Assembly (NCBI GenBank): GCA_009746045.1
Contig: RPFO01000165.1
Coordinates: 4,646,692 to 4,710,691 of the forward strand
Reading direction: 5' to 3'
Length of the DNA stretch: 64,000 nucleotides
Source of the DNA: Mesostigma viride
Taxonomy: Eukaryota > Streptophyta > Mesostigmatophyceae > Mesostigmatales > Mesostigmataceae
Below the pieces are notes generated by a model. It was given only the letters and a program-made list of their open reading frames with translations. It searched no databases and was not told the origin of the DNA. The translations under genes were made by a program, and so were the position numbers. Every line of letters begins with the position of its first letter. The stretch's first letter is position 1. This document shows positions 8-54,280 of the stretch, one piece after another.

Positions 8-561
8 AACAGGCGTAGTTTGTCCATGGTGCGTTCTGCCACCTGAACCCGCGACGTGGTGGGTGGTGGACTGCCACCTGCACAGCTCAGGAAGTGCCTA
101 CGGCGTCGCAAGGCAACCGCCCAAGCGTTGTAGTGACCAGTATAGTGACCAAAGGGTCCAGTACAGCATACTACGGCTTCGTACGGCAACCCTGTAATGG
201 GGTCTGACTTTGGATAACGCTGGCTGCACGAATCACGGTCGCAATATGATGCTTGCCCTCTTCCCCTGCTATGTGATGTCTCCCGTCCTATGTGATATCT
301 CCCGTCCTATGTGATGTGTCCCAGGTCAAGTTTGTCAACGAAGGGTTCTGTCACTGCGCATTTGCAGCCGGCCAAAACGGACTATATTGGCCATCAAGGG
401 ATCTGGTCTCATCATGCCACCTCAGTCAACAGATCAAATAATGTGGATGATGCGTTCCGCCACCGTTGGCCTAAACAGTGCTACCCTATCCAGCCCTATT
501 CTCTGATGCGTTCCGCCACCGTTGGCCTTAACAGTGCTACCCTATCCAGCCCTATTCTCTG
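8..561. repeat. Echoes of the first visible DBP4 exon start, plus a 56-bp duplication
   Basis: The exon at 616 begins AG|GTCAAGTTTGTCAACG. Diverged copies of this acceptor and exon start lie at about 8-45 and 321-353. A direct duplication with a 56-bp period (449-504 and 505-561) begins GATGCGTTCCGCCACC, resembling the next exon bases. The copies contain stops or frame breaks, so I read them as intronic remnants, not exons. Confidence 0.7.
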
Positions 562-615
562 ACCCCTTTAACCACAAAGGCACGATCTACCTTTCTCACA
601 ACCCCCACGCAACAG

Positions 616-1973: not shown

Positions 1974-2004
<31 letters not shown>

Positions 2005-5000
2005 TTAACGCTCCAATGAATTCTCTCTTACTGTGTGGCTGTATTCTGGCATCCGCGCCCCCCCTGGATGATCCAGGTCGACTGCCCCGAGGACGTGGCC
2101 ACGTACATCCACCGCGTGGGCCGCACCGCGCGCTATGTGGCGGGGGGCAAGGCGCTGCTCTTCCTGCAGCCGAGTGAGCGCGCCTTTCTGGGCAAGCTGG
2201 AGGCCGCCAAGGTGCCGCTGCAGCTGCTCAAGGTGAGGGGGGTTTCGTTGGATCGTGGGTCATGTACTAGTCTAACCATCTTCTTATGGGGTCATGCAGT
2301 AGTCATGGGACGTTGGAGGTCTAACCATCTTCTTATTGGGTCATGCAGTAGTCATGGGACATTGGAGGTCTAACCATCTTCTTATTGGGTCATGCAGTAG
2401 TCATGGGACATTGGAGGTCTAACCATCTTCTTATTGGGCCATGCAGTAGTCATGGGACTTTGGAGGTCTAACCATCTTCTTATTGGGTCATGCAGTAGTC
2501 ATGGGACATTGGAGGTCTAACCATCTTCTTATTGGGTCATGCAGTAGTCATGGGACATTGGAGGTCTAACCATCTTCTTATTGGGTCATGCAGTAGTCAT
2601 GGGACGTTGGAGGTCTAACCATCTTCTTATTGGGTCATGCAGTAGTCATGGGACATTGGAGGTCTAACCATCTTCTTATTGGGTCATGCAGTAGTCATGG
2701 GACATTGGAGGTCTAACCATCTTCTTATTGGGTCATGCAGTAGTCATGGGACGTTGGAGGTCTAACCATCTTCTTATGGGGTCATGCAGTAGTCATGGGA
2801 CATTGGAGGTCTAACCATCTTCTTATTGGGCCATGCAGTAGTCATGGGACTTTGGAGGTCTAACCATCTTCTTATGGGGTCATGCAGTAGTCATGGGACA
2901 TTGGAGGTCTAACCATCTTCTTATTGGGTCATGCAGTAGTCATGGGACATTGGAGGTCTAACCATCTTCTTATTGGGTCATGCAGTAGTCATGGGACATT
3001 GGAGGTCTAACCATCTTCTTATTGGGTCATGCAGTAGTCATGGGACATTGGAGGTCTAACCATCTTCTTATTGGGTCATGCAGTAGTCATGGGACATTGG
3101 AGGTCTAACCATCTTCTTATTGGGCCATGCAGTAGTCATGGGACATTGGAGGTCTAACCATCTTCTTATGGGGTCATGCAGTAGTCATGGGACATCGTAG
3201 TCATGGGACGTCGTACTTGTGACCATCTTATCAGTTGGTCATGCAGTAGTCCGGGGATAGCTTTAGTGTAGTCATCTTATTCATTTCATCTGATTCATTT
3301 ACGTTCCGCCGCTACAGTGCCGTTGCAGCTGCTCAAAATGAGGTATCAACATTTTCGGGAACGGGCAATGGGATTGGTCGTCTGATGGTGTTGCGTTGGT
3401 ACCGCCAGGGCGTCGCTGCATGTGCCCAAGTTGCAGTAGGTTTAGGTTTAGTTTTTTTTTTTTTTTGTGTGTGTGTGTGTGTGTGCGTTTTGGTTTCTTC
3501 GCAGGGCATCCTAGCGTTTGCGGCACGTGCACTTTCTAGCCCTTAGTAGGAGGTAAGTGTCCGCCTCCGAGATGGCCAAAGCACCATGACAACTACCTTG
3601 GTTCAGATCGCCGCCGCGTGCCTGACGCGCTGATCTCACGGCTGCATCGTGTTTGTGTTGAGGGTTGGGTGGTGGAGGCTGGGGGTCGTCATCTCACCGC
3701 GACGTGGGGCCGGTTGGCCCGCGTTGTATTCTTTTCGGTGCCGGTTGGCTGCTTACCCCCATGTCTTCCCCCCATGTCTTCCCCCCATGTCTTCCCCCCA
3801 TGTCTTCCCCCCATGTCTTCCCCCCATGTCTTCCCCCCATGTCTTCCCCCCATGTCTCCCCCCCATGTCTTCCCCCCATGTCTTCCCCCCATGTCTTCCC
3901 CCCATGTCTTCCCAGATCAACCCGAAGCACCTCAAGCCAGTGACTCCCGCGCTGGAAGCCCTGCTGTCCAAGGTACGTTGCAAGCAGGCAGCACGGCAAT
4001 CGTTGTCGCTGTCAGCTGAGGGAGGGGTGTGGCTCGGTGCCTAGAAGTGCCGATGGTGTTTTTCGGTACCAACTTTGGCGCCTAGTTACTGGACTAGAAA
4101 ATGCTCGAGAAAATGTGAGAATGTTTTTCCTCCTCGGCTTTGTGTGCATGGCCCTCATCCACTGCCGCCTTGTTACCTAATTAAACTCTCCCATGCACCT
4201 AGAACGTGTGGCGCATTTTGTGTACTTGCATCCTATTTGTTTCCTAATTAAACTCTCCCATGCATCGTGTGGCGCATTTTGTGTACATGCATCCTATTTG
4301 TTTCCTAATTAAACTCTCCCATGCATCGTGTGGCGCATTTTGTGTACATGCATCCCATTGTGGCACATGGCTCTATGCGCTCAGTCTTAGTTTGCTGCTG
4401 CTGCCTTTACTGCTTCCTCCCCATGTTCATCGTGTGCTGCAAACGCGTGCTGTGAACGGTGTTCTTTCCTGCTCACGTCACCCATACATGTGCCAACGGC
4501 GACCGAGCTGAGGCATATACCATGCATAAAACACGTGCACCTATTAGCTCGCATATACTGCTGCCCCTCTTGTTACCCCCCCCCTCTTCTGTGTTGCACA
4601 TGTGTGCGTGCCAGTTGCAAGCAGGACATGGAGCTCACGCACATGCACATGCCCATGCCCATGCCCATGCCAAGCAGCCTAGTACATCCTTCCACTCCAT
4701 GTGCTGCCTTTGATTCTACTCCCACTCATTCGCTTGTGCCGGCTGCAAGCAGGACGCGGAGCTCAAGCACACCGCGCAGCGCGCGTTTGTGTCGTACACA
4801 CGGTCCATCTACCTGCAGGTGCGTGCGCCCGGCAGGGTTAAGGAAATAAAATTAGAGCCACTTTTATAGCGGAGAAAGGGCACTTAATTCGAAGAAAGCG
4901 AGAGGAATTATGCTCTCCCCTGGCACGCTCTTGTCTGCCGGCGGGCTCACATCTCAGCCCGCACACTTTGCATCAGCAACATAACTTCTGTGCACAGTAA

Positions 5001-8000
5001 AAAGGGAAAATGCACTGTCAAAAGGGAAAAGGTAAAAAGAAAGCGTACACCAGCGTGCCCACGGGACCTGCACATGCCCACGGGGCATGCGCATGCCCAC
5101 GGGACCTGCACATGCCCACGGGGCATGCGCACGGGACACACGCTAGTTATACTCTAGTTTGCACGCTAGGTATACTCTAGTTTGCACGCTAGGTACACTC
5201 TAGTTTGCACGCTAGGTACACTCTAGTTTGCACGCTAGTTATACTCTAGTTTGCACGCTAGGTATACTCTAGTTTGCACACTAGGTACACTCTAGTTTGC
5301 ACACTAGGTACACTCTAGTTTGCACACTAGGTACACTCTAGTTTGCACGCTAGGTACACTCTAGTTTGCACGCTAGGTACACTCTAGTTTGCACGCACGG
5401 TACACTCTAGTTTGCACGCTAGGTATACTCTAGTTTGCACGCTAGTTATACTCTAGTTTGCACGCTAGGTACACTCTAGTTTGCACGCTAGGTATACTCT
5501 AGTTTGCACGCTAGGTACACTCTAGTTTGCACGCTAGGTACACTCTAGTTTGCACGCTAGGTACACTCTAGTTTGCACGCTAGGTATACTCTAGTTTGCA
5601 CGCTAGGTATACTCTAGTTTGCACGCTAGGTATACTCTAGTTTGCACGCTAGGTACACTCTAGTTTGCACGCTAGGTATACTCTAGTTTGCACGCTATGT
5701 ACACTCTAGTTTGCACGGTAGGTATACTCTAGTTTGCACGCTAGGTAAACTCTAGTTTGCACGCTAGGTAAACTCTAGTTTGCACACTAGGTAAACTCTA
5801 GTTTGCATGCTAGATATGCCGCCCATGTCATTTGGTGTGTTTGTAGCCGTATTTGCGAACCCGTGCACAAAAATGCAGACATTTTTGTGAGCCAAACATT
5901 GCCCGTGCTGCGAAACCTGACCGCGAAGATTTCACATAAGTTTTTTTCTATCAGCAACTAGTGGAACGCTATAGCCGTACTGAGAGATATACTATTACTA
6001 TAGTACAACCTGAAGTACAAATAGGAAATGATGCACACGAATTGTGTGCAACACTGATTGACATGGGCGGTGTACCGCGGGCGCCAGCATTAGAGGCGCT
6101 ACCATGCATGGATGCTTGGCGGGTTGCGTCGCGTGTGCGTGCTTGGCACACTGTTCCTGAGGCGGCTGCGTGCCGTGCGGTAGCTGGAGGACAAGGACAA
6201 GCGCTGCGTGCCGTGCGGTAGCCGAAGGGCAAGGAGATGCGTAGTTTTGTGCATCCAACAGCGGTGGCACCAACCCGCGCGTATCCTGGCCGATGACCGT
6301 GCGTGCTGGCGTCCGCTCGAACTTGGGTGCACACCTCGGGGGTTCTGTGGTCTGGGCACTGGACATACCGTAAATATGCACTTCAGGGGGTCTGTGGTCT
6401 CAGCGGGCGCTGGGGTAGTGGGGTATTCCACGGGCCATGTACTAATTAATGGTTCCATGGCCGCTGCTGTTCTACGTGCATTTCTCCTCGCGTGGCTGTT
6501 TCTGCTCAATCTCTGGTGTGTCTTGGGGGCATGGGCCATCTTCTAATGAATAAATGGGCCATGTGCTAATGAATGGGTTATTTAATTCACTATTGGGCCA
6601 TGTGCGCGGCGCTAGCAGAAGGACAAGGAGGTGTTCCAGGTGGACCCTGAGGCGCTCGCGGAGTACGCGCTCTCGCTAGGCCTGCCGACCGCCCCCAAGA
6701 TCCGCATCAAGAAGCAGACCAAGAAGGGAGGGGCACCGGAGGGCAAAGGTGGGCCACCCATGGGTCGTGCTCACCCTACGCATCAAGGAGACAACCAGCG
6801 CAGGCATGGCATTACTTTATACTATAGTGACCATGGCATCAAGGAGACAACCAGCGCAGGCATGGCATTACTTTATACTATAGTGACCATGGCATCAAGG
6901 AGACAACCAGTGCAGGCAAGGCATTGCTTTATACTATAGTGGCCATGGCATCAAGGAGACAACCATCGTAGGCATGGCATTACTTTATACTATACTGACC
7001 ATGGTATCCGTGAGACAACCAGCGCAGGCATGGCATTACTTTATACTATACTGACCATGGCATCAAGGAGACAACCAGCGCAGGCCGTATGTGTGCATCA
7101 AGAAACATACCCAGAAGTGAGGGGAGTCGGAGGGTAAGTATGGTGCCATGCAGTAATAGTTCACAACCTCAATCCATGGTAGTCAACTAACAGTAATGGT
7201 TTGCAACCTCAATCAACGGTAGTCAACTACCACTGGTAATAGTTTGCAACCTCAAATCAATGGCAGTTAACAAATAATATTACTTCACAACCTCGATTAA
7301 TAGTAGTGCCTGTATGGTGAAAGGAGGCAGGGATGGCGGTGGTAAGGTCGGATGTGACATGCTGCATGACGTGACTGCGGTGCAGGAGTCAGGAGATGAG
7401 GCTGGGTTGCTTTGTACTTAGTAATGCAGCGGATTCTGGAAGGTATGCGTTGGAGAAATATTAAGGCCTCAGGGACCAGAAGGTATATATCGGCAGAGCC
7501 CAGAACAGTAGCATGCCGCAGTGCCTGTCGAAGCATGGATTGCTAGCCTAGGCGAAGGAGCCTGCTTGGGTTTGTTCCGATGCCAGAAGAGTGCCGTGCT
7601 GGCGACATATTTCTGTCATGTTTTGGCGCGCGCACAAACAGCCAGTAGATCGTTATTATCAGTCGACTATGACATTATTATTAAATAGCCAGTCGATCGT
7701 TATTATCAGTCGACTATGATATTATTATTAAATAGCCAGTCTATAGTTATTATCAGTCGACTATGATATTATTGTTATCAGTTATTTTGTGGGTCACCAA
7801 TCGCTCGGCTTTCTTGCGAGCCTGCCTCACTGCCGTTGCGTGGGTGATGCGCAGCTCCCAGCAGCGACGACGAGGGCGAGGGCGAGGCCAAGGGTGAGGA
7901 TGGAGACGCAAAGCGAGCTGGCGGGGCGGGCAATCCGGCAGCAGGCCGCACGAGCCCTGATGGCAGTGACGAGGACCAGAACGAGGCAGCCTCTCCCGAG

Positions 8001-10364
8001 GACGGACCAAAGAAAAAGAAGAAGAAGGACAGAAAGGTGGTGGCGGAGCCAGGGGGGGCGGATGCGTCAGGTCGTGGGGACACGTGCCGCGGGGCTGGTG
8101 CAGGGGAGGATGGCGACGGGGCGGCAGCAGCGAGTGCGGAGGAGGAGGACGGGGAGGGCCTGCTGCAGCTCAAGCGCGCGGATGTCGACTTGGAGTCGCT
8201 CGCGGAGAAGTTCCGGGAGGCGCAGGGGGAGGCCGCGGCGCTGTATGTTGCTTATAAATAGATGCATGGCCACGCGCTTTTTAGGTCACGGGGCTACCTG
8301 CTTATGCTTTATGCGGCCACGTGCTTATGCGCCATCTGGCCATGTGCTTGCGCGCCATCTGGCCATGTGCTTGTGCAATTTGTGGCGAACCTCTTGTTTC
8401 ATCTTGTGGCTGAGTATGGGGTTTTCCTGTGCCATTTGCCAGTAGCTACGAGGCTTCGATCATGGTGTGGTCCAAGGCTGTTTGTCCGTATCTGGCGACC
8501 GTGGTGTCATGTGGCTATGTATTGGCTATGTGTTGGCTATGTGTTGGCTATGTGTTGGCTATGTGTTGGCTATGTGTTGGCTATGTATTCGCTATGTGTT
8601 GGCTATGTGTAGGCTATGTACTGGCTATGTACCGGCTTGGTGTTGGCTATGTATTGGCTGTGTGTTGGCTATGTGTTGGCTTTGTGTTGGCTATGTATTG
8701 GGTTGATTGGGCTCATGCAAGTGTTCTTTTTTTACAGCAACGCGCATTAGTCACCTGACTTGTTTGTCCGGCAGCACATATTTGATCAGCCGCTCGATGG
8801 GCCGAGGTACCAAATCGGTCACTATTCGCTGTTTGCCTCTCACACCATAGGGCCCCATTTATATGGTTTACTATACAGTTCATGCATATGGTTTACTATT
8901 TGCTGTTTGCATCCCACATGATAGGGCCCCGTTTACATGGTTTACTATACAGTTCATGCATAGGGTTTACTGTTTGCTGTTTGCCTCCCACATGATAGGG
9001 CCCCATTTATATGGTTTACTACACAGTTTATGCATATGGTTTACTATTTGCTGTTTGCCTCCCACACAATAGGGCCCAATGCATATGGTTTACTGTTTGC
9101 TGTTTGCCTCTCACACGATAGGGCCCCATTTATATGGTTTACTATACTGTTCATGCATATGGTTTGCTATTTGTTCGTCTACGACGCGTTAGTCGCGTCG
9201 TTGTACCTTTACAGCTCTTGACTTCATTGCTTTGTCTTAATTTGGGGCGTATTAAGTTTGAGTTCGTTTCGTGACCGATTCCATTTAAACCTGATCTTAG
9301 TCTCTTGCTCTTGCTCATTATTCCTTCGCCGTCTTTTCTTCCTGCCCCCCTTCCCCCCCACACCTGGTACGCCCCCCCCCCCCAGGTCACGCAAACAAAA
9401 GAAGGCGCTCAAAATCAGCAAGGGTGCGGGCCCGCCGCGCAACAACAAAGTGGTCTTTGACGACGCCGACGAGCCGGACGACCTCAGCGCGCTTCCCTCA
9501 AAGGAGGCCTTCCTAGCCGCGGCGATGGGTGGATATGGCGGGGATGCCTCTGGGGACGACCAGAAGAAGGGACATGACGAACGGGGGGCTGACGTCGCCA
9601 TGGCTAACCACAAAGGGGCCGTGGAGGTGACGGAGGACGGCAACGGGGTGAGGCTGCCCCGCATGGACGCGGTGAATGAGCGGTTTGCCCGCCTGCGCGC
9701 GCTCATGAGGGAGCGCGACGCTGAGGACAAGCAGCTGCTCAAGGAGAGGCTCCGGGAAAAGCGGCACAAGGAGAAGGCCAAGGCGGAGCGCCGGCGCGAG
9801 CGGATGGGTGAGGGCGAGGGCGGCGCAGTGGCCATGCTGGGCCGAGACAGTGACGATAGCGAGGGCGGGGATGATGACGACGATGATGATGCGAGCATGG
9901 GCGGCGATGATGTCAGCGGGCATAGCGGCAGCGAGGAGGAGGGTATGGGTAGAGAGCGGGGTCGCCAGGTGCGGCTCGATAGTGACGAGAGTGATGGTGA
10001 TCATGACCGTGGTGGAGAGGAGGATGGCGACTCGGAGGATGACCTGGCGGTCAGATGGACGCCCTCCCAGGGGCGCGGCAGCAAGAGGGCGCGCTTGGGT
10101 GAGGAGGATGGCGAGGACGAGGATGAATCGATGGGCCGTGAGGGTAGCGATGAGGGCACGGGTGCCAGCAGTGAGGAGGAGAGGGAGGCAAGGAGGGGAA
10201 AGAGCAAGAAGGGCAAGGGGAGGGAGTCAGGCAAGCCGAATAAGAAGTCGGCAGGGCAGGGCAAAGTGGCGGCCAAACGAGGCAAGTCGGACAAGGTTGT
10301 GGCTGGGATGTCGCTCAAGGAGCAGGAAGCCCTGGCTCTGTCGTTGCTTGGCCGTAGGGGCTGA
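616..10364 (+). CDS. DBP4: DBP4/DDX10-family DEAD-box RNA helicase, 5'-partial
   Basis: Seven exons join in frame: 616-807, 2077-2232, 3916-3972, 4753-4818, 6619-6748, 7855-8242, 9386-10364 (655 residues to the stop); the DEAD-containing N-terminal half lies upstream of the window. Seen: helicase motif V ([11 protein letters not shown]), motif VI ([10 protein letters not shown]), then the family's C-terminal blocks [26 protein letters not shown] and EYALSLGL. An acidic/lysine-rich region, a charged helix near [15 protein letters not shown] and the end [16 protein letters not shown] follow, mirroring the end of human DDX10. Known for the family: a nucleolar ATPase of the small-subunit processome that acts in 18S rRNA maturation and release of U14 snoRNA from pre-rRNA. 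Introns are swollen by minisatellites. Phases agree at all six junctions; the exon F start at 7855 was chosen over two nearby AGs because only it keeps frame. Confidence 0.93.
1230..1300. repeat. 9-bp microsatellite-like tract (TCTCATATG)n
   Basis: About seven copies of TCTCATATG or close variants inside a DBP4 intron. This intron also holds an ACACAC-rich tract near 1785-1850 and a run of C at 1974-2002 that leads toward the next acceptor at 2076. Confidence 0.85.
2269..3195. repeat. 49-bp minisatellite, about 19 copies, DBP4 intron
   Basis: Head-to-tail 49-bp units with few substitutions. Each unit contains TCTAACCATCTTCTTATTGG and then GGTCATGCAG. Read on the gene's strand, that is a branch-point-like CTAAC, a pyrimidine-rich stretch and a CAG, resembling a 3' splice site. 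The array follows the donor at 2233. Confidence 0.95.
3307..3343 (+). repeat. Echo of a DBP4 exon end with its donor region
   Basis: This stretch reads GTGCCGTTGCAGCTGCTCAA followed by AATGAGG. The true exon end reads GTGCCGCTGCAGCTGCTCAA followed by GGTGAGG (to 2232 and beyond). The copy lies about 1.1 kb downstream, beyond the 49-bp array, and its donor GT has become AT. Confidence 0.75.
3755..3912. repeat. 14-bp pyrimidine-rich array abutting an acceptor
   Basis: About eleven copies of a unit reading CATGTCTTCCCCCC run directly into the acceptor CCCAG at 3911-3915. The array therefore supplies the polypyrimidine tract of the DBP4 exon at 3916. Confidence 0.93.
4174..4355. repeat. 61-bp tandem repeat, three copies
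   Basis: Three copies starting CCTAATTAAACTCTCCCATG, at about 4180, 4243 and 4304, in a DBP4 intron. The copies are nearly identical apart from a variant first unit. Confidence 0.9.
4611..4650 (+). repeat. Echo of a DBP4 acceptor and exon start
   Basis: Reads TTGCAAGCAGGACATGGAGC. The true junction at 4740-4770 reads CTGCAAGCAGGACGCGGAGC. The copy keeps the acceptor-like CAG and lies about 130 bp upstream of the real site. Confidence 0.75.
5050..5815. repeat. 23-bp minisatellite, about 29 copies, preceded by a 38-bp duplication
   Basis: At 5050-5135 a unit with CCCACGGGACCTGCACATG is tandemly repeated. From about 5140 to 5815 a 23-bp unit (CACGCTAGGTACACTCTAGT plus TTG) repeats with scattered substitutions. 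Both lie in a DBP4 intron. Confidence 0.95.
6179..6245 (+). repeat. Two weak echoes of the DBP4 exon start at 6619
   Basis: Two neighbouring copies resemble the junction GCTAGCAGAAGGACAAGGAG at 6611-6630: one near 6180 (TAGCTGGAGGACAAGGACAA) and one near 6220 (TAGCCGAAGGGCAAGGAGAT). They are more diverged than the other echoes. Confidence 0.5.
6782..7085 (+). repeat. 56-bp minisatellite shared with an ARMC2 intron
   Basis: About five and a half copies of a 56-bp unit beginning ATCAAGGAGACAACCAGCGC and ending with CTATAGTGACCATGGC. They start just after the donor of the DBP4 exon ending at 6748. The reverse complement of the same unit forms the array at 20765-21075. Confidence 0.95.
7140..7780. 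repeat. Two further DBP4 intron repeats (about 45 bp and 47 bp)
   Basis: At about 7150-7310 a unit containing CAACCTCAATC and GGTAGTCAACTA recurs imperfectly. At about 7639-7780 a 47-bp AT-rich unit containing CGTTATTATCAGTCGACTAT recurs three times. The second ends shortly before the acceptor at 7854. Confidence 0.8.
8510..9170. repeat. 12-bp and roughly 75-bp arrays in the last DBP4 intron
   Basis: Positions 8510-8705 hold (TTGGCTATGTG T)n-like 12-bp units. Positions 8822-9170 hold about four to five longer units that contain ATGGTTTACTAT, TTTGCTGTTTGCC and GATAGGGCCCC. The intron ends in a C-rich tract and CAG at 9385. Confidence 0.88.
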
Positions 10365-41800: not shown

Positions 41801-44800
41801 GTATGCACCCGGGGAATGTCGGTGCTCATTCATGACCTCCCGAGATGGCACATGGCTATTCGTTTTATATTCATCTGGGTGGATTGGGCTCATGAAAGTC
41901 ATTTGAAGGTATCACTCTACTGGAAGGAAAGTAATGTGAGGGGGAGTCAGGTAGGGAAGATCAGGCAGGAAGGACGGCAGACACAATATAGGGGGGTATG
42001 TAAGGGAACAACGAAAAACGCCATCCACTGGCACTGCGATTAAGAAGAAAAATTTTCCAGCCATTGTTTGATACGAACCTTATTGTACTAGTGGTACTCA
42101 ACGCCGACATGAATGACACCTACTGTGCCTACGGTGGCCCAGTACAGCTACGGCTGATTCTAAACCTATAACAGATGCAAGGCTCTGCGGTACCTTCCCA
42201 AGTCACCAAGACGTCACCAACTCACCAAGTCACGCTGACACACTGGGGCACCAAGACCACGCAAAAGGCTCTACGTGACGTATGCCATATGCTGGCCATG
42301 ACTAATGTGCTAAGTAGCCAAGAGCACCTGCCGAAATCAGATAGTCCAGGCATTCCAATTTCAAATGTGCCGCCCAAACACCCAACATTTCACAAGCACT
42401 TGTACACGTGCCAGCGGCCGCAAGCCGTACCAGCCGAATGCGGACGCTTCCCCACTAAGCCCTCAACCCCAAACTCCAAACCCCAAACCCGAAACAGTTT
42501 CCCTCATTACCACCCTCTCCCCTGGTCCCGTCCTCCCTAACAGGCAGTCCCACCTGGTTCTCTGCCGACTTGGTGGCGGCGGCGCCGGCGCTACCATCCA
42601 CACCCCCACCCGCCATCGGGCCCCGCTGCCCCTGCCCTTTGGCCCCCGCCACCCCTCTAGCCCTGGTCGCCGCCACCAGCGCCTCAGGCCTCTGCCCACG
42701 GTAGATGGCCGCGAATATCTCCAGCAGCAGCAACGCGTCCTTGGAGAAGGGCTCCTCGTCTGCCATGGTGGCGGTGGACAGCATCAACTCCATGATATTC
42801 TCGCTGAAGAAGCGCTCCAGCAGGTCGTCCTGATGCAGGAGGGACAGAGAGCAATGAACGGGTTATAGTGACCAGGTAAGTGTCGAGGTGGGTAACGTCA
42901 GCTCCGCTGACAAGAAACGTACAGGAACGGCGCTATGAACCAAAGCTATTATCTGCCCTCCCCCACCTTCATGTGGGCAAGGCGCCTGCTTTGCAAATAA
43001 GGAAACGGTTCAGGACCGGCGACATGAATGCAAGCGACTGCCTGCCCTCCCTCACCTTCATGTGGGCAAGGTGCGCGCCCGCCGCACAGCTGCCGATGGG
43101 CGGCGCCGGGTCCGGGATAGCCAGCAGGTTGCGGAAGAGGGTGAGGACGAGCTGCGACAGCTGCGCCTGCTTGGGCGACATAGCGCCGCTGTTGGGTGGG
43201 TGGGTGGGTGGGTGGGTGGGTGGGTGGGTGGGTGGGTGGGTGGGTGGGTGGGTGGGTGGGTGGGTGGGTGGGTGGGTGGGTGGGTGGGTGGGTGGGTGGG
43301 TGGGTGGGTGGGTGGGTGGGTGGGTGGGTGGGTGGGGGTGGGGTGGGTGGGTGGGTGGGGGTGGGTGGGTGGGGGTGGGTGGGTGGGGGTGGGGGGGAAG
43401 TAGGCACCGAGTAGCAAACAGATTGACGACCATCATGCTCATGGTTCAGCACGCAATGCCACACAGCTGCCCATGCTTGGGCGGCGTGGCGCGGCTGGGT
43501 GGAGGTGGAGAGAGGGGGGGGGGAACGAAGAAATTTATACTGACAATAGACTAGAAAAATGGACACTATATATGAACACAATACTACTATATGGACGCTA
43601 TGGACACTATACTATACTACTATATGGACGCTATGGACACTATACTATACTACTATATGGACGCTATGGACACTATGCTACTATATGGACGCTATGGGCA
43701 CTATACTATACTACTATATGGACGCTATGGACACAATACTACTATATGGACGCTATGGACACTATACTACTATATGGACGCTGTGGACACTATACTGTAC
43801 AACTACAGTCGGCCCTGCGTTAAGGTACGACGCCCAGTAATTGGCATTGTGTACCTGACCGCCCACCTTACACAAAATATCTGGCCGGAAATGTGGACTT
43901 TGGGCACTTTGATGCTGCAGCTGGATCGGGCTTGACGAGAGCTGTCGATTGCCGCATAGAAGTCTGTCAGAACTCAGAAGAGGAGGGGGTGGGCTGCTAG
44001 CCTAATTCTACCGCTAAGGTTACGCCCCCGCGTTAAGTTACGTCCCTGCGTAAAGTTACGACGCCGAGAATTCGGCGGCGATCGTAACTTAATGCGGGGC
44101 TGACTGTATATGGACGCTATGGACACTATACTTTACTATATGGACACTATGGACACTATGGACACTATACTGTACTACATGGACACTATGGACACTATAC
44201 TATATGGACGCTTTATTGACACTACGTTGACCGTTTAACACAAGATGCCAGGCGAGTGCGCATACTTGGGCAAGGGGTTAAGGGCATACCCTTGACGGGA
44301 TTTGAGGGCATATTTATTACTAGTACCATCGAGACATATTTATTACTAGCACTAGTGTCTCTTTCACAGAGACACATGTGGTCTATTAATAGATAGCACG
44401 CGCGAACTCAACTGTGGCATAAGCGCTTGCCAGGATGGCAAGCACACGCGGACCGTCCACTAGACACGCATACACGAATACACACACATACGTGTGCACA
44501 CACACAGACTACTGTAGTGACCACACACACACATACACACCCACACACACCCACACACACACTACTATACTTTAGTGACCACACACACTAGTAAACAGGC
44601 CACAAATGGTCCTTAATCAGAGCCCGCGCTCACCTCTCCCGTGGCACAAGCGTCTGATACGATGGCAAGCACATCCTGATCCTAAACTAGCCATGTAAGA
44701 AGCACAGCTGGTCTACTGATAGCACGCGCTCTCACCTCTCGTGCGCAGCGAGCGGCTCCGCCATCATCAGGCAGATGACCGCCAGCGCGCCGTTGTCCAG

Positions 44801-47052
44801 GAAGGCGGCCTTGAAGCTCTGCAATATCGCCACCTGTCCCGCGATGTCATCCGAGAGAGGCTCTGGCGGGAAGGTGAGGAAGACCAGCACCTTGACTGCA
44901 GGCATGGGAGGGCGCAAATAGTGGCAGCAGGGGAAGAAAATTTAGGAGTGAGGAAGACCAGCACCTTAAAGGTGAGAAAGACCAGCGCCTTGATCGCAGG
45001 GGGGGCGGGGGGGGGGGGGGGGGGCGATAAAAGGCCCACAAAGGGAACAAACGAAGGGTGGGGCTCCTGGGGACAAATGCCAGCAGTTGGACTGCACCTA
45101 GGGGAGGGCACAAGTGGCGTCCGAAGGGGGGGCAATAAGGAAGGGCGGGAAGGTGAGGAACACGGGCACTGTCCATGGAAAGGATCAAGGAGGGGTGGGG
45201 GGGCAGGGGCACGGATGGCGCCAAAAAGGGGGACGACTTAACTGATAACTAAACGTCAGACTGATCATACAAAAGGGGGGGGCGACTTAACTGATAACTT
45301 AACGTCAGACTGATCATACAAAAGGGGGGGGCGACTTAACTGATAACTTAACGTCAGACTGATCACTTAAAAGGGAGGGGACGACTTAACTGATAACTTC
45401 AACGTCAGACTGATCACTAAAAAAGGGGGTGGCGACTTAACTGATAACTTAAACGTCAGACTGATCACTCAAAAGGGGGGGGGCGACTTAACTGATAACT
45501 TAACGTCAGACTGATCACTTAAGAGGGGGGGGACGACTTAACTGATAACTTAACGTCAGACTGATCACTTAAGAGGGAGGGGACGACTTAACTGATAACT
45601 TAACGTCAGACTGATCACTTAAGAGGGAGGGGACGACTTAACTGATAACTTAACGTCAGACTGATCACTTAAAAGGGAGGGGACGACTTAACTGATAACT
45701 TAACGTCAGACTGATCACTTAAGAGGGAGGGGGCGACTTAACTGATAACTTAACGTCAGACTGATAACTTCAACGTCAGACTGATCACTTAAAAAGGGGG
45801 TGGCGACTTAACTGATAACTTAAACGTCAGACTGATCACTTAAGAGGGGGGGGGCGACTTAACTGATAACTTAACGTCAGACTGATCATACAAAAGTGGG
45901 GGCCATCAGGAAGATGGTGATGTTGACGGCAAGGGGGGAAGTGCATAGGTGGCCACAGAGGCGAGGAGCCTGGGGTATAAAAGAAATAGGAACTGGCATC
46001 ACTGAAAGTTTGGGAACCGGGGACTTTGACTCCGAAGGGACAGGACCATGCGTGATGGCCAATCATATATGGGAGAAGCCAGGGGCGCAAGCCAACACAA
46101 AGAGGGGCGTTAGGGCAGTCTAGTTGCGACCTTTACTGCAGTGGGGGGGCATAGGTGATGGCCATACGTGGGGGGCCCATAATTGGGAGCCCAGAAGTGG
46201 GAGCAATAAATGGGGGCCCACACATGGGGCCCTGTAACTGGGGGCCCATGAGTGGGGAGCAGCCAGGGGCACAGAGGAATAGAAAAAGAGGGGGGGGGGG
46301 GGGGGGGGGGGGAATCCGCAGTGGGGAGAATGCGGGTCATGTAGTAGAGAAAGATTGGGGAGAAGGAAAGTGAGAAAGACAAGACGAGCACATGAAACAA
46401 AGTTGCGACTACTGTATATACTGTTGTCAATGGCGGGTATGCACATGGGAAAGTGAACACTCATGCATGAATGATGCCGCCCATGAGAACCGATTCGATT
46501 TCAACCCAAACTACAGACACAATCCGTGCAGCCCTCTGCTATTAATTGCGAGGAAAGATACTTGGCCAAGGAAACGGTAAGCAACCGAAAATTTTTTGGT
46601 AGCTTTCGAATGAGGTCACCACGATAAAAGTAAGCATCTTTGTTGCATGAGACGTACTGGCTTCAAGCGCCAGGTTGAAGTCTTCCACGCCATGCTGCAG
46701 TAAAATGGGGATGATGTCGGACCGCACGATGTTGAAAGCGCCGAGTTGCCTGAAGGCATCCCTCGTTTCTGGGCTGTCTCGCCGCAAGAAACGTTGTAGA
46801 TCGCGCAGATTATCTGCACGCACAACGACAGGGGAGGAAATGGAATGTTTAGAGAAAGACCAGGAAGGCCTCGCAAGTTTTGTAACAGTGGCAGAGCATT
46901 CGAAGGCAGGTTTGCCAAGTTGAAATTTTTTGCTAAAAGATACCTATGCTCTCCTCTCCCAGCTCATAATAGGCTCTGCCGTCCTCATCGGTCTGTGTAG
47001 ACCCCAAACCTGTACACACAGCGACCAGATGGCCAACATCAAGAGCCGCCAT
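26817..47052 (-). CDS. TIMELESS: Timeless/Tof1 replication fork protection protein
   Basis: Seventeen exons: 47052-46944, 46813-46658, 44895-44736, 43188-43056, 42829-42554, 41204-41061, 40303-40105, 39551-39433, 37343-37084, 36275-36109, 35605-34322, 33102-32899, 32030-31926, 31046-30676, 30166-29825, 29347-28609, 27906-26817; about 1952 residues. Seen in order: DNLRDLQRFLRRD and RQLGAFN (N-terminal TIMELESS domain), KVLVFLTFPPEP, LSQLVLTLFRNLLAI, RHSRFGGTY, LDNAGADRADKHVARAL, LFQLSVLGVLGG, VLFWKTRQDC, GQMVRRLHQLGLR, then FALGCQPP with FWRLFPA as in the C-terminal domain. Known: with Tipin/Csm3 it stabilises stalled forks, aids the S-phase checkpoint and cohesion. Twice the usual plant length is avoided only partly: exons 11, 16 and 17 add acidic, lysine-rich, disordered sequence. 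Exon 9 needs one extra base in a C8 run to stay in frame. All other phases agree. Confidence 0.93.
28035..28185. repeat. 48-bp repeat, three copies, Timeless intron 16
   Basis: Three copies containing AAGCAAACGCATGCCTGAAC and AGTTATTAATAGTTTGAGGG. They lie between exon 17 and exon 16 on the minus-strand gene. Confidence 0.9.
31060..31465. repeat. 8-bp array (GGGCAGGA)n with poly-G, upstream of Timeless exon 14 acceptor
   Basis: About 46 copies of an 8-bp unit on the plus strand, followed by a G run at 31066-31083. On the gene's strand this reads as CCTGCCC repeats and then poly-C, ending about 15 bases before the exon 14 acceptor. It serves as an extended pyrimidine-rich tract; the long Pro-Ser-Cys-Leu frames through it are artefacts. 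Confidence 0.95.
31570..31782. repeat. 16-bp array (CACTACTATCCTAGTT)n
   Basis: About thirteen copies with CTAGTT/CTAATT variants in Timeless intron 13. It is followed by an ACACAC-rich stretch at 31805-31890 close to the exon 13 donor. Confidence 0.93.
32168..32432. repeat. 23-bp array, about 11 copies, Timeless intron 12
   Basis: Units containing GACCAGCATAACAGGCCCAG, with a switch from GCTGGAC to GCGGGAC variants midway. The array lies about 140 bp upstream (in gene sense) of the exon 13 acceptor. Confidence 0.93.
32640..32838 (-). repeat. Echoes of the Timeless exon 12 end, and a dispersed 32-mer
   Basis: The exon 12 donor region on the plus strand reads TACCGTTCCGCGTCCGAGCC (32896-32915). 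A clear copy lies near 32772-32792 (CACCGCTCCGCGTCTGAGCC) and a weaker one near 32650-32680. Positions 32807-32838 carry a 32-mer that recurs at 41692-41723 with one difference. Confidence 0.65.
33822..34248. repeat. 43-bp minisatellite, about 10 copies, Timeless intron 11
   Basis: Nearly identical units starting CACCTTGCTTATCTCCACGC. On the gene's strand each unit contains AAGGTGATTAGGTGATAG, two weak donor-like GGTGAT motifs. The array starts about 75 bp after the exon 11 donor. Confidence 0.95.
35681..35712 (-). repeat. Echo of the Timeless exon 11 start
   Basis: Plus strand CCACGAGGTCTACCACCTGG then CTGCGGCAG, compared with CCACGAGGTCCACCACGTAG then CTGCGAGCG at the true junction (35588-35613). 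It lies in intron 10, upstream of the true acceptor in gene sense. Confidence 0.75.
35830..36040 (-). repeat. Two echoes of the Timeless exon 10 end
   Basis: Copies at 35830-35905 and 35961-36040 resemble the true exon 10 end at 36102-36180 (plus strand GCGCGGCAGCTTGAAGCGGT). Each covers roughly 75-80 bases and differs by about ten. Both carry CAGCTG where the true junction has CAGGTG, so the donor GT is lost in both. Confidence 0.88.
36325..36575. repeat. 22-bp array, about 11 copies, Timeless intron 9
   Basis: Units with GTGTAAGTGTTTAGATAAGA and small length variants, just upstream (in gene sense) of the exon 10 acceptor at 36276-36277. Confidence 0.93.
37975..38290. repeat. 27-bp and 18-bp repeats, Timeless intron 8
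   Basis: About five copies of a unit containing GCCCACCTGCCTAAACACAC at 37975-38105. An imperfect 18-bp unit (GATAGATTAATTACGAAT) follows at 38190-38275. Confidence 0.85.
38625..38662 (-). repeat. Echo of the Timeless exon 8 end with intact donor
   Basis: Plus strand CCACCTGCTTCTCGAGGTAG, against CCACCTGCTTCTCGAGGCAG at the true junction (39429-39448). The complementary CAG|GTGG donor dinucleotide is preserved. The copy lies on the far side of the 38-bp array from the real exon. Confidence 0.85.
38664..39384. repeat. 38-bp minisatellite, about 19 copies, donor-like motif in each unit
   Basis: Nearly identical units containing CAGTACTCACCTACCTCTAC. On the Timeless sense strand every unit reads GTAGAGGTAGGTGAGTACTG, which includes TAG|GTGAGT, close to the 5' splice-site consensus. 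The array begins about 50 bp after the true exon 8 donor at 39432. Confidence 0.96.
39988..40025 (-). repeat. Echo of the Timeless exon 7 end with donor
   Basis: Plus strand GTACTCACGCCCGTATCTGC, against CTACTCACGCCCGTATCCGC at the true junction (40098-40117). The donor-complement CAC is kept. A short TATCAGTCTCC repeat separates copy and original. Confidence 0.85.
40376..40512. repeat. 24-bp repeat in Timeless intron 6
   Basis: Imperfect units containing GGGTCACAACAAGGAAATAG. Between the array and the exon 7 acceptor lies a G-rich stretch (40340-40365) that is C-rich on the gene's strand. Confidence 0.85.
41241..41390. repeat. 14-bp repeat (GGGTCATAAGAACA)n, Timeless intron 5
   Basis: About ten units alternating between GAACA and GAATA endings, starting about 35 bases upstream (gene sense) of the exon 6 acceptor. 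Confidence 0.9.
42945..42985 (-). repeat. Echo of the Timeless exon 4 end
   Basis: Plus strand CACCTTCATGTGGGCAAGGC, against CACCTTCATGTGGGCAAGGT at the true junction (43053-43072), with CTGCCCTCC preceding both. About 100 bp separate copy and original; the donor GT is intact in the copy. Confidence 0.85.
43191..43398. repeat. (GGGT)n array abutting the Timeless exon 4 acceptor
   Basis: About 45 pure GGGT units, then GGGGGTGGGT variants. On the gene's strand it is (ACCC)n and runs to within a few bases of the acceptor CAG at 43191-43189. The plus strand has strong G-quadruplex potential. Confidence 0.96.
43558..44210. repeat. Array with unit TATGGACGCTATGGACACTA, Timeless intron 3
   Basis: Imperfect units of about 28-32 bp at 43558-43805, and a second block at 44105-44210 after 300 bp of unrelated sequence. 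ACACAC-rich and echo-like sequence follows toward exon 3. Confidence 0.88.
44380..44690 (-). repeat. Weak echoes of the Timeless exon 3 end
   Basis: The true junction on the plus strand reads CTACTGATAGCACGCGCTCT (44713-44732). Similar stretches occur near 44382-44405 (CTATTAATAGATAGCACGCG) and near 44622-44640. The two share further similarity (GGCATAAGCGCTTGCC and GGCACAAGCGTCTGAT followed by GGCAAGCACA). Confidence 0.55.
44943..45003 (-). repeat. Two echoes of the Timeless exon 3 start
   Basis: Plus strand GTGAGGAAGACCAGCACCTT at 44948 and GTGAGAAAGACCAGCGCCTT at 44971, against GTGAGGAAGACCAGCACCTT at the true exon start (44875-44894). The second copy also keeps an acceptor-like GATCGCAG. 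A run of G (C on the gene's strand) follows. Confidence 0.88.
45228..45895. repeat. About 48-bp array, 14 copies, Timeless intron 2
   Basis: Units containing GACTTAACTGATAACTTAAC and GTCAGACTGATCACTTAA separated by variable G runs. It is one of the longest arrays in the window. Confidence 0.95.
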
Positions 47053-48649: not shown

Positions 48650-51600
48650 GGGCCGCGCGTTGGACGGTCTTCGGGCCCTGGCAGCCGAGATGCGAGTGGA
48701 GGTAAGCCCTGCAGCCGTTGTAGATAATTACGTGTCTATCTAGGCCAGGAAGCGTTGAAGCCTTTCAGTTTTTTGGAGGGTAAAAATGTCCTCTCTCACA
48801 ACACACGCACGCCTTTGATGCACCCTGACTCCGAGACGCCGGGGAAGCAGAGTCACGTCGGCTCTAGTTTAATTTATGTTTGAAACATGAATATTGCGCG
48901 TAGAGTAAGAGCTGTTGCTCTAAATCTTTTTTCTTATCAAGTACTTTCTTGTTTTTATTGGATACTTGCTGGAGACTGTTCAAAGGATCTCCCCTGGTGC
49001 GCTTAGCCTGTACGTAGCTAGCTACTGGCCCTAGGCGCGGCTTTACTGCACGAGTCTGCTTGCGATGTGTATTACTTTACCCAAACCAAACCAAACCAAA
49101 CGAAATGGGACCAAAATTATAGTACCCCAAACAAAATAAAACCAAAATGTATCGTACAAAAAGACAAATACCAACTTCAACCCGCCCTACCCCCTTGGTC
49201 TTTCCATCCCATGCATATCACCCCTCTGACACGCAGCCCCCTGCGGTTTTTCTCTACTGTATCTGACGCAGACCCTGGACAGCATGCAGCTGAACCTGCT
49301 GTATCACTTCGCCTTCTTCATATGCCGGGAGCCGGGGCGCAAGAACGTCTGTGAGTTCTATTAGACAACTATCTTATCAGTATTTGTTCATCAATAAAAT
49401 TCTGTTTTCGATTGAACAGCAGAACCGCGGTGAGAGTTGAGTATAGGTTTGCCTGCTGTGTCAGCTTGCTGTTTCTCAAGTATCGGAGCCAGGGCACAAA
49501 GGCATTTGTGAGCATTACTATATACTACAATAGACTTCAATATACTACGATATACTTCTGCTTCAATATACTACGATATACTTCTGCTACAATAGACTAG
49601 AATATACTTCTGCTACAATACACTACGATATACCCATCGCGGTTGGGCAGTGGAGGTAGGACGGTAGCAAGCGCTACATATAGCATGGCCCTGCTGTGTC
49701 ACGCTGCCCTGATGGTGCCAAGAGCCAGGGCGCACGCTGCCCGGCTCTGAACCCAAGAAGCGGGGCGCAAGTCTGGTAGAGTGTCCGGGACCGGTGACCA
49801 CTAACCATGGCGTGGGGGGACTACTACCAGCAGTACAGTCATTCATGCCTTCATTAATGGATTAATTAAACTATATAGTACAGTCATTCATGCCTTAGTT
49901 TGGGTTTGCTTAGGTTGGGTTTGCGCCTTAAGTTTGGTCGCGTAGGATTTCGGCATTCTAAATTCAAACTAGTTCAGATTAGTATGTTTTAGTATCGTTG
50001 GTTCAAACTAGTACAAATTAATACAGCCATTCATACCTTCTATGGGTTCATGTCTTAAGTTAAGTTGACCCCAATTTATCTGGCGAATCCCATAGGAGGC
50101 GTGAATGACTGTCCTCTGATAGGACATGTTTTGCTGACGTTTTGCTCTGATAGAACATTCGATCACACAGCGCCGCGCCAATCGCTCGACAGACCGCACT
50201 GATTGATTGACCTATGGTTGCCGGTGGCGCGATGATAATCCTTCAATAATAATTAATTAATCCTCTACTTGCTCGTTGGCTCGCACCTTGGCAAGTCTAT
50301 GAAGTACTACTGTCCGCAGGTTGGACACTGTAAGGTCACTGTAGCACCATGACACCTGCCAGGGTGACCATCACTTGCTTTGAAGCAGCAACGGGCTCTG
50401 CACACGTGCTGCTATGATTTCTGACGTGGCTCCTGCTGGAAAGGGGTGAACTGATGGATCGCTTGTGCACAAGGGTCGCCCTCGCTTAACCTACACCCCC
50501 TCCTTGATGTTTCAGAGCCTCTGGTCAGAACATCAAGGAGGGGGTGTAGTGGGCGGACATTCCCACATCCCATGTTGTGGGTCTCGTGGATAAAGTTTCA
50601 TCTTTTCTTTTCTCTGAGGGTGATGGATGGTGGGGGGGGCACTCGGGGCATCCTTCAACATTATCCTCCCACATTTTAATACTCGTGCCCCGACATGCCA
50701 CTTGGCAAGTCTATTTTGTAAATGATATGCCACTGGGACGGCTGTATGCGCTTCCGCTGTCATGGCTATATGCGCTTCCGCTGTCATGCGCCTCCACGTC
50801 ACGGCTATATGCGCCTCCACCGTCATGGGTGTCTGTGCTCAGCGCTTCCACTGCCGCAGGGCATACCACTGCTTGCCGCTGTCACGGCGGTGTATGTAGA
50901 TATCCATGCGACAACCAGCCTGTAATACATATGCCTGTAGTTGTTGTAATAATGTTATTCCTGCAGTAGCTCGTTGCATTGGTTGGGTGTCTCTAAGATG
51001 CTCGCTGTAAAGTTGTTCCTGTTTTGCCCGCCATTCCCACTGCCGGTCTCACACCCGTGATCTAGCCAACACAGGTAAGACCAACGTGTTTTCTTTTGTA
51101 TCTGAGTCCATGCGCCACGCCATGTCACAGCCATGCCGGTCGCGCTGGCTGCCTGGCGGCTCGTCCTGAACGGCCGCTTCCGCCTGCTCGACAAGTGGTG
51201 CGCGTTCGCCGAGGTGGGTAGAACAGCAGATGTCCTAAGCGGTAGGAACACGCCCATGCCGTCGACATACTGTACTAGTATCGAACATGAGCACGAGCCA
51301 TCAACAGAACATGATGGCCTATACGGTCGAGTAGACCGTCGCGTGAACCGCACACCGTACCACCCAACAGTGTTGTGCTAGCAGCCTGCAGCATCGTCCC
51401 GGCCATGCTAGTTTGCTTGAGGTGGGTATGGGCTTGAAATATCTATGTATGGCGTCAGCTCGCAACGTCTTTACAATCCAACCCAACGGGAGCTTTGACA
51501 GATCACAGGCTAGCGGCCAGTAGTAACAGCCTGTCGGCATGTGCTGGCAAGGAGACGGTGTCGGTGGCCACTGGACCAGTTTATTTACCATGGAAACTCT

Positions 51601-54280
51601 ACCTTTGTCTGTTCTTGCACCCTGCAGGGCTGCGGCAAGGAGACGGTGTCGGAGGACACGTGGCTTCAGGTGCTGGAGTTCAGCCGCAACGTGCACGAGG
51701 ACCTATCTGACTACGACCCAGATGGTGAGCCATGCCCATGGTTATAGTCGTAGCATTAGCAATAGCGCTAGCAATCTTCGTAGTAGTTCAGCCGCAACGT
51801 CCACGAGGACCCGTCTGACTACGACCCGGATGGTGAAGGCATGCGCGCAGTGCCCAGGGTGGATTGAGGCCTGCCTTATCCATGGCACAAATCATCGTCA
51901 CTTGTAACTGAGTAGAAATTGAAGTGATTGGCTATTGTTTACATGGGCGTATGACAGTGTGTTGCCCTGTTTTGTAAGATCCCCCTGCGGTGCTTGGAGC
52001 AGTTGCTTATGGCTTTGCTTTTCATCCTGGCTGCTCCTGCATCGCAGTGACTATATTTAGCCACGGGTCACCAGACGACGATGCGCGCTGTGGACGCCTG
52101 TCCGCCTTCTAGTTTTACTTATTATACCAGTTACTACTAATATTCTTAGTACGAGTACTTTTTAATTTATAATATTCTCAATACGAATTTTTTATTTTAT
52201 TGTTTATGTAGGACTTGGCAGCATGTACGCCTCATCGTTTATGGATGTCTGCCCGTCCGCTCGTTTGTGATGAAGTGTACTACAGTAAGATTGCTTTATA
52301 GTATAGACCAAGAACTTCCAGAACACGCATCTAATTGTGCGCGGTCTCTGCTCGCCCCCATGCCCGCCTGCAGGTGCCTGGCCTGTCCTTATCGATGAAT
52401 TTGTCGAGTCGATATGCAGGTACGGTGGGGAGCGAAGGGGTTTGCTAGTTTCTGGCTTGGGGTCTGTCTGGGGACTCGTTGAATGCATGCTGTCACTTCC
52501 AAGGTCGCTCTTCCTTGTTGGTCTCGTAGAGTGGTCTTGTATGAGCTGACCTTGGGGCACAACAACGGCGTTGATGGTTTTGATCCTGTTTGGGGCACTA
52601 GCGAATCAGTGCATGATGGACAGCGGACAGCACAGGATGCTTGTTTTATCGTCCCCCCCGCTCCGCGCTGCAGTGAATGAGCAGGTTTTTTGGTTCTGTC
52701 AGCTCTACACGCAGCTCGCTGCCGGTGGCTGGCTTACAGGGGACCTGTCCAGGGTAAATTTTACCCTGTGTGCCCAACTGTGTGTGTTTACACAGGACCG
52801 ACAATATAGAGCCATTTCGAGTTCAGCATGCGACAACCGGTTTAGATCACAGGGGCTGACAAATGGCCTACGTTTGAGGTGCCACAAGTGGCTAGTTAAC
52901 ACATGCAGCTTTTTGGACCTATCATATACCGTTATGATTATACACCGCTTCGCATAACAACCCCTATCATATACCGCTATTATTATACACCGCTTCGCAT
53001 AACAACCCCTATCATATACCGCTATGATTATACACCGCTTCGCATAACAACCCCTATCATATACCGCTATTATTATACACCGCTTCGCATAACAACCCCT
53101 ATCATATACCGCTATTATTATACACCGCTTCGCATAACAACCCCCTATCATATACCGGTATGATTATACACCGCTTCACATAACAACCCCTATCATATAC
53201 GGCTATTACTATACACCGCTTTGCACAGCAACGCCCATTTATCTCCTCTTCAGCGTCCGCTGTTGTATCTATTCCGAGTGTCCGCTAGTTGTATCTATTC
53301 CGGGTGTTATCTTTCCGGGTGTCCCCTATGGTATCTATCCCGGGTGTTCTCTATTGGGTCTATCCCGGGTGTCCGCTATTGTATCTATTCCAGGTGTCTG
53401 CTATTGTATCTATTCCGGTTGTTCTCACTTTCCATCGTTACCTTCACCCGTGTCCTATCCTTGTCCTTATTTTCCGCTCTGTTTTCCGTGCATATTACGG
53501 GAGCTCTCACTTCCTATGGTTTTGTTTCCTCCGTGCAACGGCCTGGGTGGGCGCGTGCATTGCCACAGCCGATTCATGCAAGCCAGGACGCCGCACGCGG
53601 GATGCTCCCCCTCCTGTCCCGGCGCGCCCGCCATGCCCTGCCACACCAGGTACGGCCAAGGTCTGCACGGCCGCCCCCTGGGGATGCCCAGGGACCCAGC
53701 CACGCAGGCCGCCCCCTCCCAGGCCCCGGCGGGGTGCGATGTCCAGGCCAGGCTGGCACCCGGGTGCCAGCATCACGCGGCGCCGCGGCACCACCACCGC
53801 CATGGCCACCATCATCCGCAACCGGCCCCCTGGTTGTTGCAGCCGGAGACCGGCATGAAGCGGCGGTTCCGAGACATGGCGGCGCATCAGCCGGCACACC
53901 TGACCGGCCTGCCGTCCTCTCTAGCAGCGCATCCCGGTGGACCTAATGCTGTTTCCGGCACGTCCTCTCATGGGTTGGGAGCGGGCGGGGGCGGTAGCGG
54001 GAGGCATCCTGTGGGCCACAGCCACTACCCGCCCGCGAGTTTTGAAAGTAGCGGCTGTGGCCGGGTGATCGAGCCCTGCAGCCCGCCCTGCAGGGACGAC
54101 ATGTCATTGGGTGATGGCGTGGAGGTTCTCTCACACAAACTGGCGGCGCTGCACGCGTACCCCCCCGGCAGCGGCCAGGGAGGCTGCTGTGACTGTGTCG
54201 AGGGTGCTGGGTCGGCGGGGCATGTGTGCCCGGTGCACGGCAGTAGCCCGTGGGTGCAGCGCAAGCGTGCGTGCTGGTGA
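48650..54280 (+). CDS. DCN1-like protein (DCUN1D family), N-terminus not located
   Basis: Exons in frame: 48650-48701, 49272-49350, 51131-51213, 51628-51724, 52374-52419, and a probable last exon from 53587 (or 53569) to 54280. Seen: LDGLRALAAEMR; LNLLYHFAFFICREPGRKN; ALAAWRLVLNGRFRLLDKWC; SEDTWLQVLEFSRNV; DLSDYDPDG with AWPVLIDEFVE. These are the successive blocks of the potentiating-neddylation (PONY) domain. Known: DCN1 proteins bind cullins and the acetylated E2 Ubc12 and promote NEDD8 transfer, activating cullin-RING ligases. The first roughly 100 residues expected before LDGLRAL are missing; small exons in 47.1-48.6 kb could supply them. The last exon adds about 230 His/Gly/Pro/Cys-rich residues that DCN1 relatives lack; its frame fits but its membership is inference. 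Confidence 0.82.
50491..50549. repeat. Perfect 21-bp hairpin in a DCUN1D intron
   Basis: Left arm 50491-50511 starts CTACACCCCCTCCTTGATGT; right arm 50529-50549 is its exact reverse complement, with a 17-base loop. In the transcript it would form a stable stem. No repeat elsewhere in the window shares the arm sequence. Confidence 0.9.
51540..51844 (+). repeat. Echoes on both sides of the DCUN1D exon at 51628-51724
   Basis: Upstream, GCAAGGAGACGGTGTCGGTG at 51547 mirrors the exon start GCAAGGAGACGGTGTCGGAG at 51634. Downstream, 51787-51844 copies 58 bases of the exon end and donor (TTCAGCCGCAACGTCCACGA against TTCAGCCGCAACGTGCACGA) with about five or six differences, including GATGGTGA at the donor. 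Confidence 0.92.
52905..53420. repeat. 45-bp and roughly 25-bp arrays before the last DCUN1D exon
   Basis: Seven copies of a 45-bp unit (CATATACCGCTATTATTATA then CACCGCTTCGCATAACAA) at 52917-53225. Imperfect units with GTATCTATTCCGGGTGT follow at 53265-53420. Confidence 0.93.

Follow-up and report, generated by a model that had tools for sequence, protein, structure and literature searches.

The locus and its gene models

The sequence analysed here, which we call the window, is a 64-kb stretch of one contig of the 440-Mb, 2243-contig genome of Mesostigma viride. Four of its genes were modelled manually: a DBP4/DDX10-like helicase and three others that we take to be ARMC2-like, Timeless-like and DCUN1D-like, labels that come in part from the preliminary description of this DNA. 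For exons 1-5 of DBP4, all joins hold in alignment to the HAS1 and DDX18 helicase structures. A small gene finder recovered most of the remaining exon boundaries (a stricter setting dropped several short exons); its training set was the same hand-made exons, and we regard this agreement as a consistency check, not as independent proof. One Timeless-like exon shows, by eye, an apparent frame change at a single-base run (about 37241-37260), which is either a sequencing error or a real indel.

The window also holds two intergenic inverted repeats, 54723-55070 and 55207-55808 (95% over 62 bp and 84% over 114 bp), which resemble small terminal-repeat elements. Further along, a long open frame (56041-59293) is seemingly interrupted between 56886-56908 and 58770-58792, two 23-bp stretches that match perfectly in inverted orientation, which would suit insertion of a terminal-repeat element; a similar frame was seen by eye at 2354-2678 of L032, one of the other loci described below.

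Table 1. Copies of exon edges and associated features, in window coordinates
Feature	Start	End	Strand	Remarks
DBP4/DDX10-like helicase exon	616	807	+	several upstream copies derive from its 5' edge
616 acceptor edge copy	7	45	+	84.6% identical to 610-648 (self-BLAST)
616 acceptor edge copy	322	358	+	34/38; AG retained
56-bp tandem pair (TRF)	448	562	+	resembles the 616 exon edge (TGCGTTC-GCCACC), by eye
Donor edge copy of exon 2077-2232	3308	3343	+	30/36; splice GT gone
Acceptor edge copy of exon 4753-4818	4608	4643	+	AG retained
Acceptor edge copy of exon 6619-6748	6208	6239	+	AG gone; weak, score 30; also aligned as 6215-6239; additional
Donor edge copy of exon 6619-6748	7095	7137	+	beyond the 56-bp x 5.5 array 6780-7085; additional
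Timeless C-terminal exon edge copy (edge near 32899)	32773	32796	-	91.7%; exon predicted by gene finder only; additional
Acceptor edge copy of exon ending 35605	35673	35710	-	AG retained
132-bp x 2.5 tandem repeat across donor of exon 36109-36275	35825	36163	-	TRF and alignment
Donor edge copy of exon 39433-39551	38598	38664	-	includes about 48 nt of intron
Acceptor edge copy of exon ending 39551	39614	39656	-	AG gone; additional
Donor edge copy of exon 40105-40303	39996	40023	-	26/28; GT retained; 11-bp array between
Donor edge copy of exon 43056-43188	42914	42985	-	73 aligned bases; period 88-89
Acceptor edge copy of exon 43056-43188	43463	43497	-	alignment; additional
Two acceptor edge copies of exon 44736-44895	44948	45009	-	44948-44967 and 44969-45000; AG gone in both
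DCUN1D-like exon with copies on both flanks	51628	51724	+	alignment
Copy of exon 51628-51724 near its acceptor	51546	51571	+	24/26; upstream
Donor edge copy of exon 51628-51724	51785	51844	+	51/57 over 51788-51844; downstream; GT retained

Exon edges recur in the adjacent introns

The preliminary description held that introns in this window contain partial copies of the neighbouring exon edge, splice site included, and named as a control the comparison with shuffled intron-exon pairs. Alignment recovered all ten places that it listed, the beginning of the pattern (position 8) and the exon flanked by copies upstream and downstream, together with copies beyond its list (marked as additional in Table 1). 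Our test unit was a 60-nt edge (45 exon and 15 intron nucleotides) aligned to its own adjacent intron, applied to 49 window junctions, a set that leaves out DUF302, the last gene (61537-63078) and the C-terminal exons of Timeless. A direct copy of the edge was found in the adjacent intron at 16 of these junctions (score >=28), and 22 of the 49 outscored all 300 equal-length draws from other window introns. We take 16/49 as the firmer count, since several of the 22 matches span just 11-19 nt and one, at junction 3915, is simply the pyrimidine array. The forward orientation scored above the reverse complement at 38 of the 49 junctions and the reverse was ahead at 6. No edge copy at score >=28 was found in the ARMC2-like gene (4 introns), and only 2 of the 10 junctions in the DCUN1D-like gene carried one.

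An unguided self-comparison of the window (arrays masked, score >=34, distance up to 1 kb) gave direct pairs of which 15 had one member at a junction, 6 were intron-intron, 1 was exon-intron and 5 were intergenic; it also gave 5 inverted pairs, every one of them between genes. Queries from exon interiors matched introns in 0 of 78 windows at score >=28, by score counts within the 64 kb.

Several copies deserve individual description. The donor edge of exon 36109-36275 has two outer copies, 35954-36014 (55/61) and 35827-35905 (83.5% over 79), and in both the donor G has become C (in the second by reading the sequence). The copy at 42914-42985 nearly abuts its partner, 43002-43074, with 16 bases between them, and 45144-45169 is a third match to the acceptor edge at 44895. 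When 51500-51900, which covers the two-sided exon, was searched as DNA against the genome, that single place was returned. Copy and original are separated by an array at five places in the window (2270-3195, 6780-7085, 38660-39382, 40037-40095 and 43193-43387); a 38-bp x 19 array, for example, separates the copy at 38598-38664 from exon 39433-39551. The 38-bp unit of this array (38660-39382) has, by eye, a donor-like GGTAGGTGAGT on the gene strand. The 56-bp minisatellite unit of 6780-7085 recurs as its reverse complement in an intron of another gene (20763-21060) and, by eye, once more in intergenic sequence (about 11041-11074), so array units seem to disperse, beyond local expansion.

Anatomy of the copies

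Exon-only queries (limit 60) yielded 31 copies at score >=28 in the window and the other loci together. All but two of these exon-anchored copies (29/31) end within 6 nt of the junction, where random placement predicts 8.7. The aligned exon part measures 18-55 nt, and the distance to the edge reaches several hundred bases for some copies. The 40 nt of intron past the junction are co-copied, with a mean score of 10.8 vs a null of -3.0 (sd 6) and p<0.05 singly in 13 of 29 cases. When the 50-nt intron flank served as the query instead, a local copy of it turned up for 24 of 141 junctions, and only 4 of these 24 copies clearly carry the exon edge too, which indicates that near-junction duplication is not limited to events that cross the junction. 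A copy abutting its original, with the unit length equal to the period, is clear at L032 8413-8668 and nearly so at window 42914-43074; elsewhere an array or unmatched sequence lies between the two.

Mismatches between copy and exon fall on the three codon positions at 23/320 (7.2%), 28/328 (8.5%) and 52/322 (16.1%), and the third differs from the first two with p=1.5e-4. Such a pattern would be as expected for a freely drifting copy beside an exon that is free only at silent positions, and weak constraint acting on the copies may be part of the explanation. These percentages are unusable as a clock, since choosing copies by their score against the exon lowers them.

Other loci of the genome

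Helicase and chaperonin loci were taken by Pfam match, not by the presence of copies, which gave 13 loci with 91 junctions. Within them we kept, by eye, predicted exons reading as part of the helicase, SNF2 or chaperonin gene; the remaining predictions, and a number of doubtful edges, were excluded (e.g., L001 213-441, L033 7607-8144, L030 5557-5644 and, in L006, 1276-1755 and the 1793 edge). Left out before counting were L002 and L007, which lack a usable intron junction, L005, for which the wider L033 was used instead, and L036, a near copy of L035; the 200-kb block L009-L028, which seemed to hold many transposons and few host genes, lies outside the copy counts. L035 (C1641:60501-64300) and L036 (C887:346301-350100) cover a CCT-like gene region and are 96.25% identical over 3.5 kb. 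They may be haplotypes or a recent duplication, and could serve to date copies.

Edge copies at score >=28 were found at 21 of the 91 junctions, with 0.30 expected from the introns of other loci, and at score >=36 at 14 of 91, with 0.03 expected; reversed edge copies at score >=28 occurred at 0 of the 91 junctions in the 13 loci. At least one copy is present in 10 of the 13 loci, while L001, L004 and L030 have no edge copy at score >=28. The earlier suggestion of a habit that extends beyond the window is thus borne out in loci chosen by protein family, and so, in the window and these loci alike, is that of recurrent events at donors and acceptors with varied divergence. L008 has three copies of one donor edge (the 1483 donor), L005/L033 has copies at two donors and L029 at five edges, and L032 contains an abutting pair across a donor (8413-8548/8549-8668). 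In L029 the gene finder fused copies into two exons, in the case of 8574-8685 because the copy retains its AG and an open frame. A tandem array of at least three copies, each with an intact donor, was found at one locus, outside the window: in the CCT-like gene of L037 (4482-4961), ten 48-bp tandem units, the real exon edge among them, each join 31 bases of exon to 17 of intron across an intact donor, and three further units that we translated keep the frame open.

Junctions compared with intron interiors

As a reference, a simple simulation of uniform tandem duplication with one-sided decay gave a junction/interior ratio of 1.0-1.5 for carrying a local copy. With arrays counted (only periods of 12 or less masked, score >=28), the ratio is 1.0 in the window and 2.1 in the loci; with arrays of at least three copies masked, it is 4.3 and 3.8 at score >=28, and 3.8-6.4 overall. 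Window interiors have a local copy in 206 of 638 cases with arrays in and in 31 of 406 with arrays masked. The ratio of 1.0-2.1 implies that introns duplicate throughout, with junctions at most about twice as active as interiors. Of the earlier proposal that introns grow by duplication across junctions, one part therefore stands, namely that junction-spanning segments are duplicated, but crediting growth to junction events in particular is not supported: given this ratio and the abundance of interior arrays, that emphasis assigned too much to the junctions.

Periods tell a different part of the story. The median period of the junction copies is 111 bp, with 17 of 31 at 85-139 bp and 3 of 31 below 85 bp. 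Interior events fall below 85 bp in 72 of 100 cases, a figure that mixes arrays with two-copy pairs and so limits the period comparison; after correction for detectability, 61-64% of junction periods would be expected to be this short. Restricted to periods >=85, copies are found at 15/49 junctions vs 15/320 interior windows in the window (6.5 fold) and at 20/92 vs 29/704 in the loci (5.3 fold), more than the one-sided-decay simulation gives. This excess may arise because interior pairs need both copies to survive fast turnover, or may reflect true targeting; interior pairs are probably undercounted, since both copies must survive in fast-turning introns. As for distance, 0 of 14 acceptor copies lie nearer than 52 nt, and 2 of 17 donor copies are very near, at 9 and 17 nt. 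These two look young, since one is 30/31 identical in its exon part and the other sits in a 97%-matched ten-unit array. We infer that the junction shortage of short periods reflects selection, a reading beside which others can be put.

Spare splice sites

Copies retain GT or AG in 19 of 29 cases (acceptors 9/13, donors 10/16), which is low relative to neutral drift at 8% per base (p=0.009) and not at 12% (p=0.10). The preliminary description had each event making a new potential splice site that then decays. Decay as such fits neutral drift; a faster loss of sites than of other bases is seen or not according to the drift rate chosen. That the copies are functional decoys or backup sites, kept to regulate splicing, seems improbable to us. 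The 19 retained sites would suit such a role, as would the ten units with intact donor at L037 and the frame open over three more of them, yet retention is not above the neutral expectation, and mismatch at codon positions 1 and 2 is half of that at the third.

Comparison with known systems

Intron gain by tandem genomic duplication is reportedly a subject of Gao and Lynch (2009) and Hellsten (2011). In the account available to us in part (PMC3443670), such gain follows tandem duplication of an AGGT-bearing exon segment, and our case resembles it in that small in-gene tandem duplications make spare splice sites; there, however, the duplicate is a new intron with ends resembling the opposite exons, whereas here existing introns lengthen. 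Cross-end similarity, of an intron's 3' end to the upstream exon end or of its 5' start to the downstream exon start, was found in 0 of 61 introns at score >=24, and mean cross-end scores equalled those of shuffled pairs. We therefore reject classical intron gain and regard the pattern as intron growth, not intron birth. A minisatellite is said, going by the title of Cuin and Porter (1995), to give multiple splice donors in a human interferon-induced transcript. The array at L037 (10 x 48 bp, with predicted donors) likewise repeats donors in a tandem repeat, but it is one case among diverged pairs, whereas that report, again by title, concerns one transcript.

Work on rice by Vaughn and Bennetzen (2014) is reportedly cited by a study of small tandem duplications in mouse cells. 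That study, in the sections available to us, attributes small tandem duplications at nick-made breaks to fill-in at staggered ends (PMC8355091). Like ours, its duplications are small, direct and contiguous, and fill-in at staggered breaks would best match the mutational step; the mechanism was shown in mouse cells, and for M. viride we infer it by analogy. In the near intron pairs of Drosophila, to judge from the accessible part of the source (PMC2891723), exon sequence with a proto-splice site is duplicated as it is here, but those cases are new intron positions (7 in section 10), whereas here many junctions of one genome carry readable outer copies. Introns of Chlamydomonas and Volvox are similarly rich in tandem repeats, with repeat density highest in introns and denser near intron-exon junctions (PMC3887541); unlike here, exon-edge copies are unmentioned in the parts of that source consulted. 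Among the matches listed from open PMC, as judged by title and the opening of the abstract, we met no description of exon-edge copying as a habit of a genome; one may nevertheless be in print.

Origin of the copies

We consider it likely, with a probability of roughly 75%, that the junction copies are remnants of ordinary contiguous tandem duplications straddling splice junctions. Direct orientation, anchoring at the junction, the co-copied flank, the drift pattern and the presence in 10 of 13 loci support tandem duplication. Against tandem duplication alone stand the excess of 3.8-6.4 with arrays masked and of 5.3-6.5 at periods >=85, both above simulation, the near-absence of short periods (3/31) and the 3 of 13 loci without a copy at score >=28. 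The pattern is thus explainable by a known mutation class at unusual density; a size limit at splice junctions we have not seen described in the literature.

The following course of events would fit. A tandem duplication, often with a period of 85-139 bp, would cross a splice junction; the exon-proximal copy would stay whole, so that the gene survives, and the outer copy would land in the intron and drift without constraint, while the gap between the two would often grow a minisatellite. The junction copies would then be that part of an intron-wide duplication which overlapped an exon, and would stay readable because the exon is conserved. Selection probably removes short units that strip the proximal site of its branch site and pyrimidine tract, as well as those that place a rival site too close, and the duplications themselves may arise by fill-in at staggered nicks.

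The main competitor makes the junctions themselves the target: exon-intron borders, through transcription, R-loops, nucleosome edges or splicing-linked breaks, would be hot spots of duplications of about 100 bp. The period-matched excess of 5.3-6.5 fold, set against 1.0-1.5 under uniform duplication, speaks for it, as do repeat events on one edge (three copies of the 1483 donor in L008, two of the 616 edge in the window), but the excess falls to 1.0-2.1 once all intronic arrays are counted, and the probable undercount of interior pairs would inflate it; we think such targeting rather unlikely. The related, wider proposition that borders are preferred sites of these duplications and so seed intron growth we put forward only tentatively, as a slightly better prospect. 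If true, junctions and interiors would differ in mutation itself, beyond survival, and each event would try out a spare site.

Other origins fare worse. Templated insertion, for example by polymerase theta, in which nearby short pieces are copied into breaks, could account for the short aligned exon parts and for copies several hundred bases off, but with 29/31 copies anchored at the junction, the intron flank co-copied and 0/91 reversed copies at score >=28, it is very unlikely; we reject it, together with inverted copying, on the grounds of junction anchoring and single orientation. An origin from spliced RNA is disfavoured by the co-copied intron flank. An artefact of assembly or gene prediction might be feared where introns are repeat-rich and hard to assemble and exon models are hand-made; the copies, however, are diverged with a codon-position pattern and the DBP4 joins hold by homology, which leaves such an artefact barely credible.

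Implications

Duplication that straddles splice junctions provides one route by which introns lengthen without gene breakage. It bears on two open questions, the lengthening of introns and the spliceosome's tolerance of nearly identical rivals close to the real site. In practical terms, exon-edge copies can mislead gene prediction and corrupt annotation. Should the rate in our sample (roughly every fourth or fifth junction) apply genome-wide, M. viride would hold very many natural experiments, in which donors and acceptors duplicated to varying degrees of divergence sit next to an intact original, and the missing class of short periods could serve to gauge the amount of surrounding sequence with which a splice site prevails.
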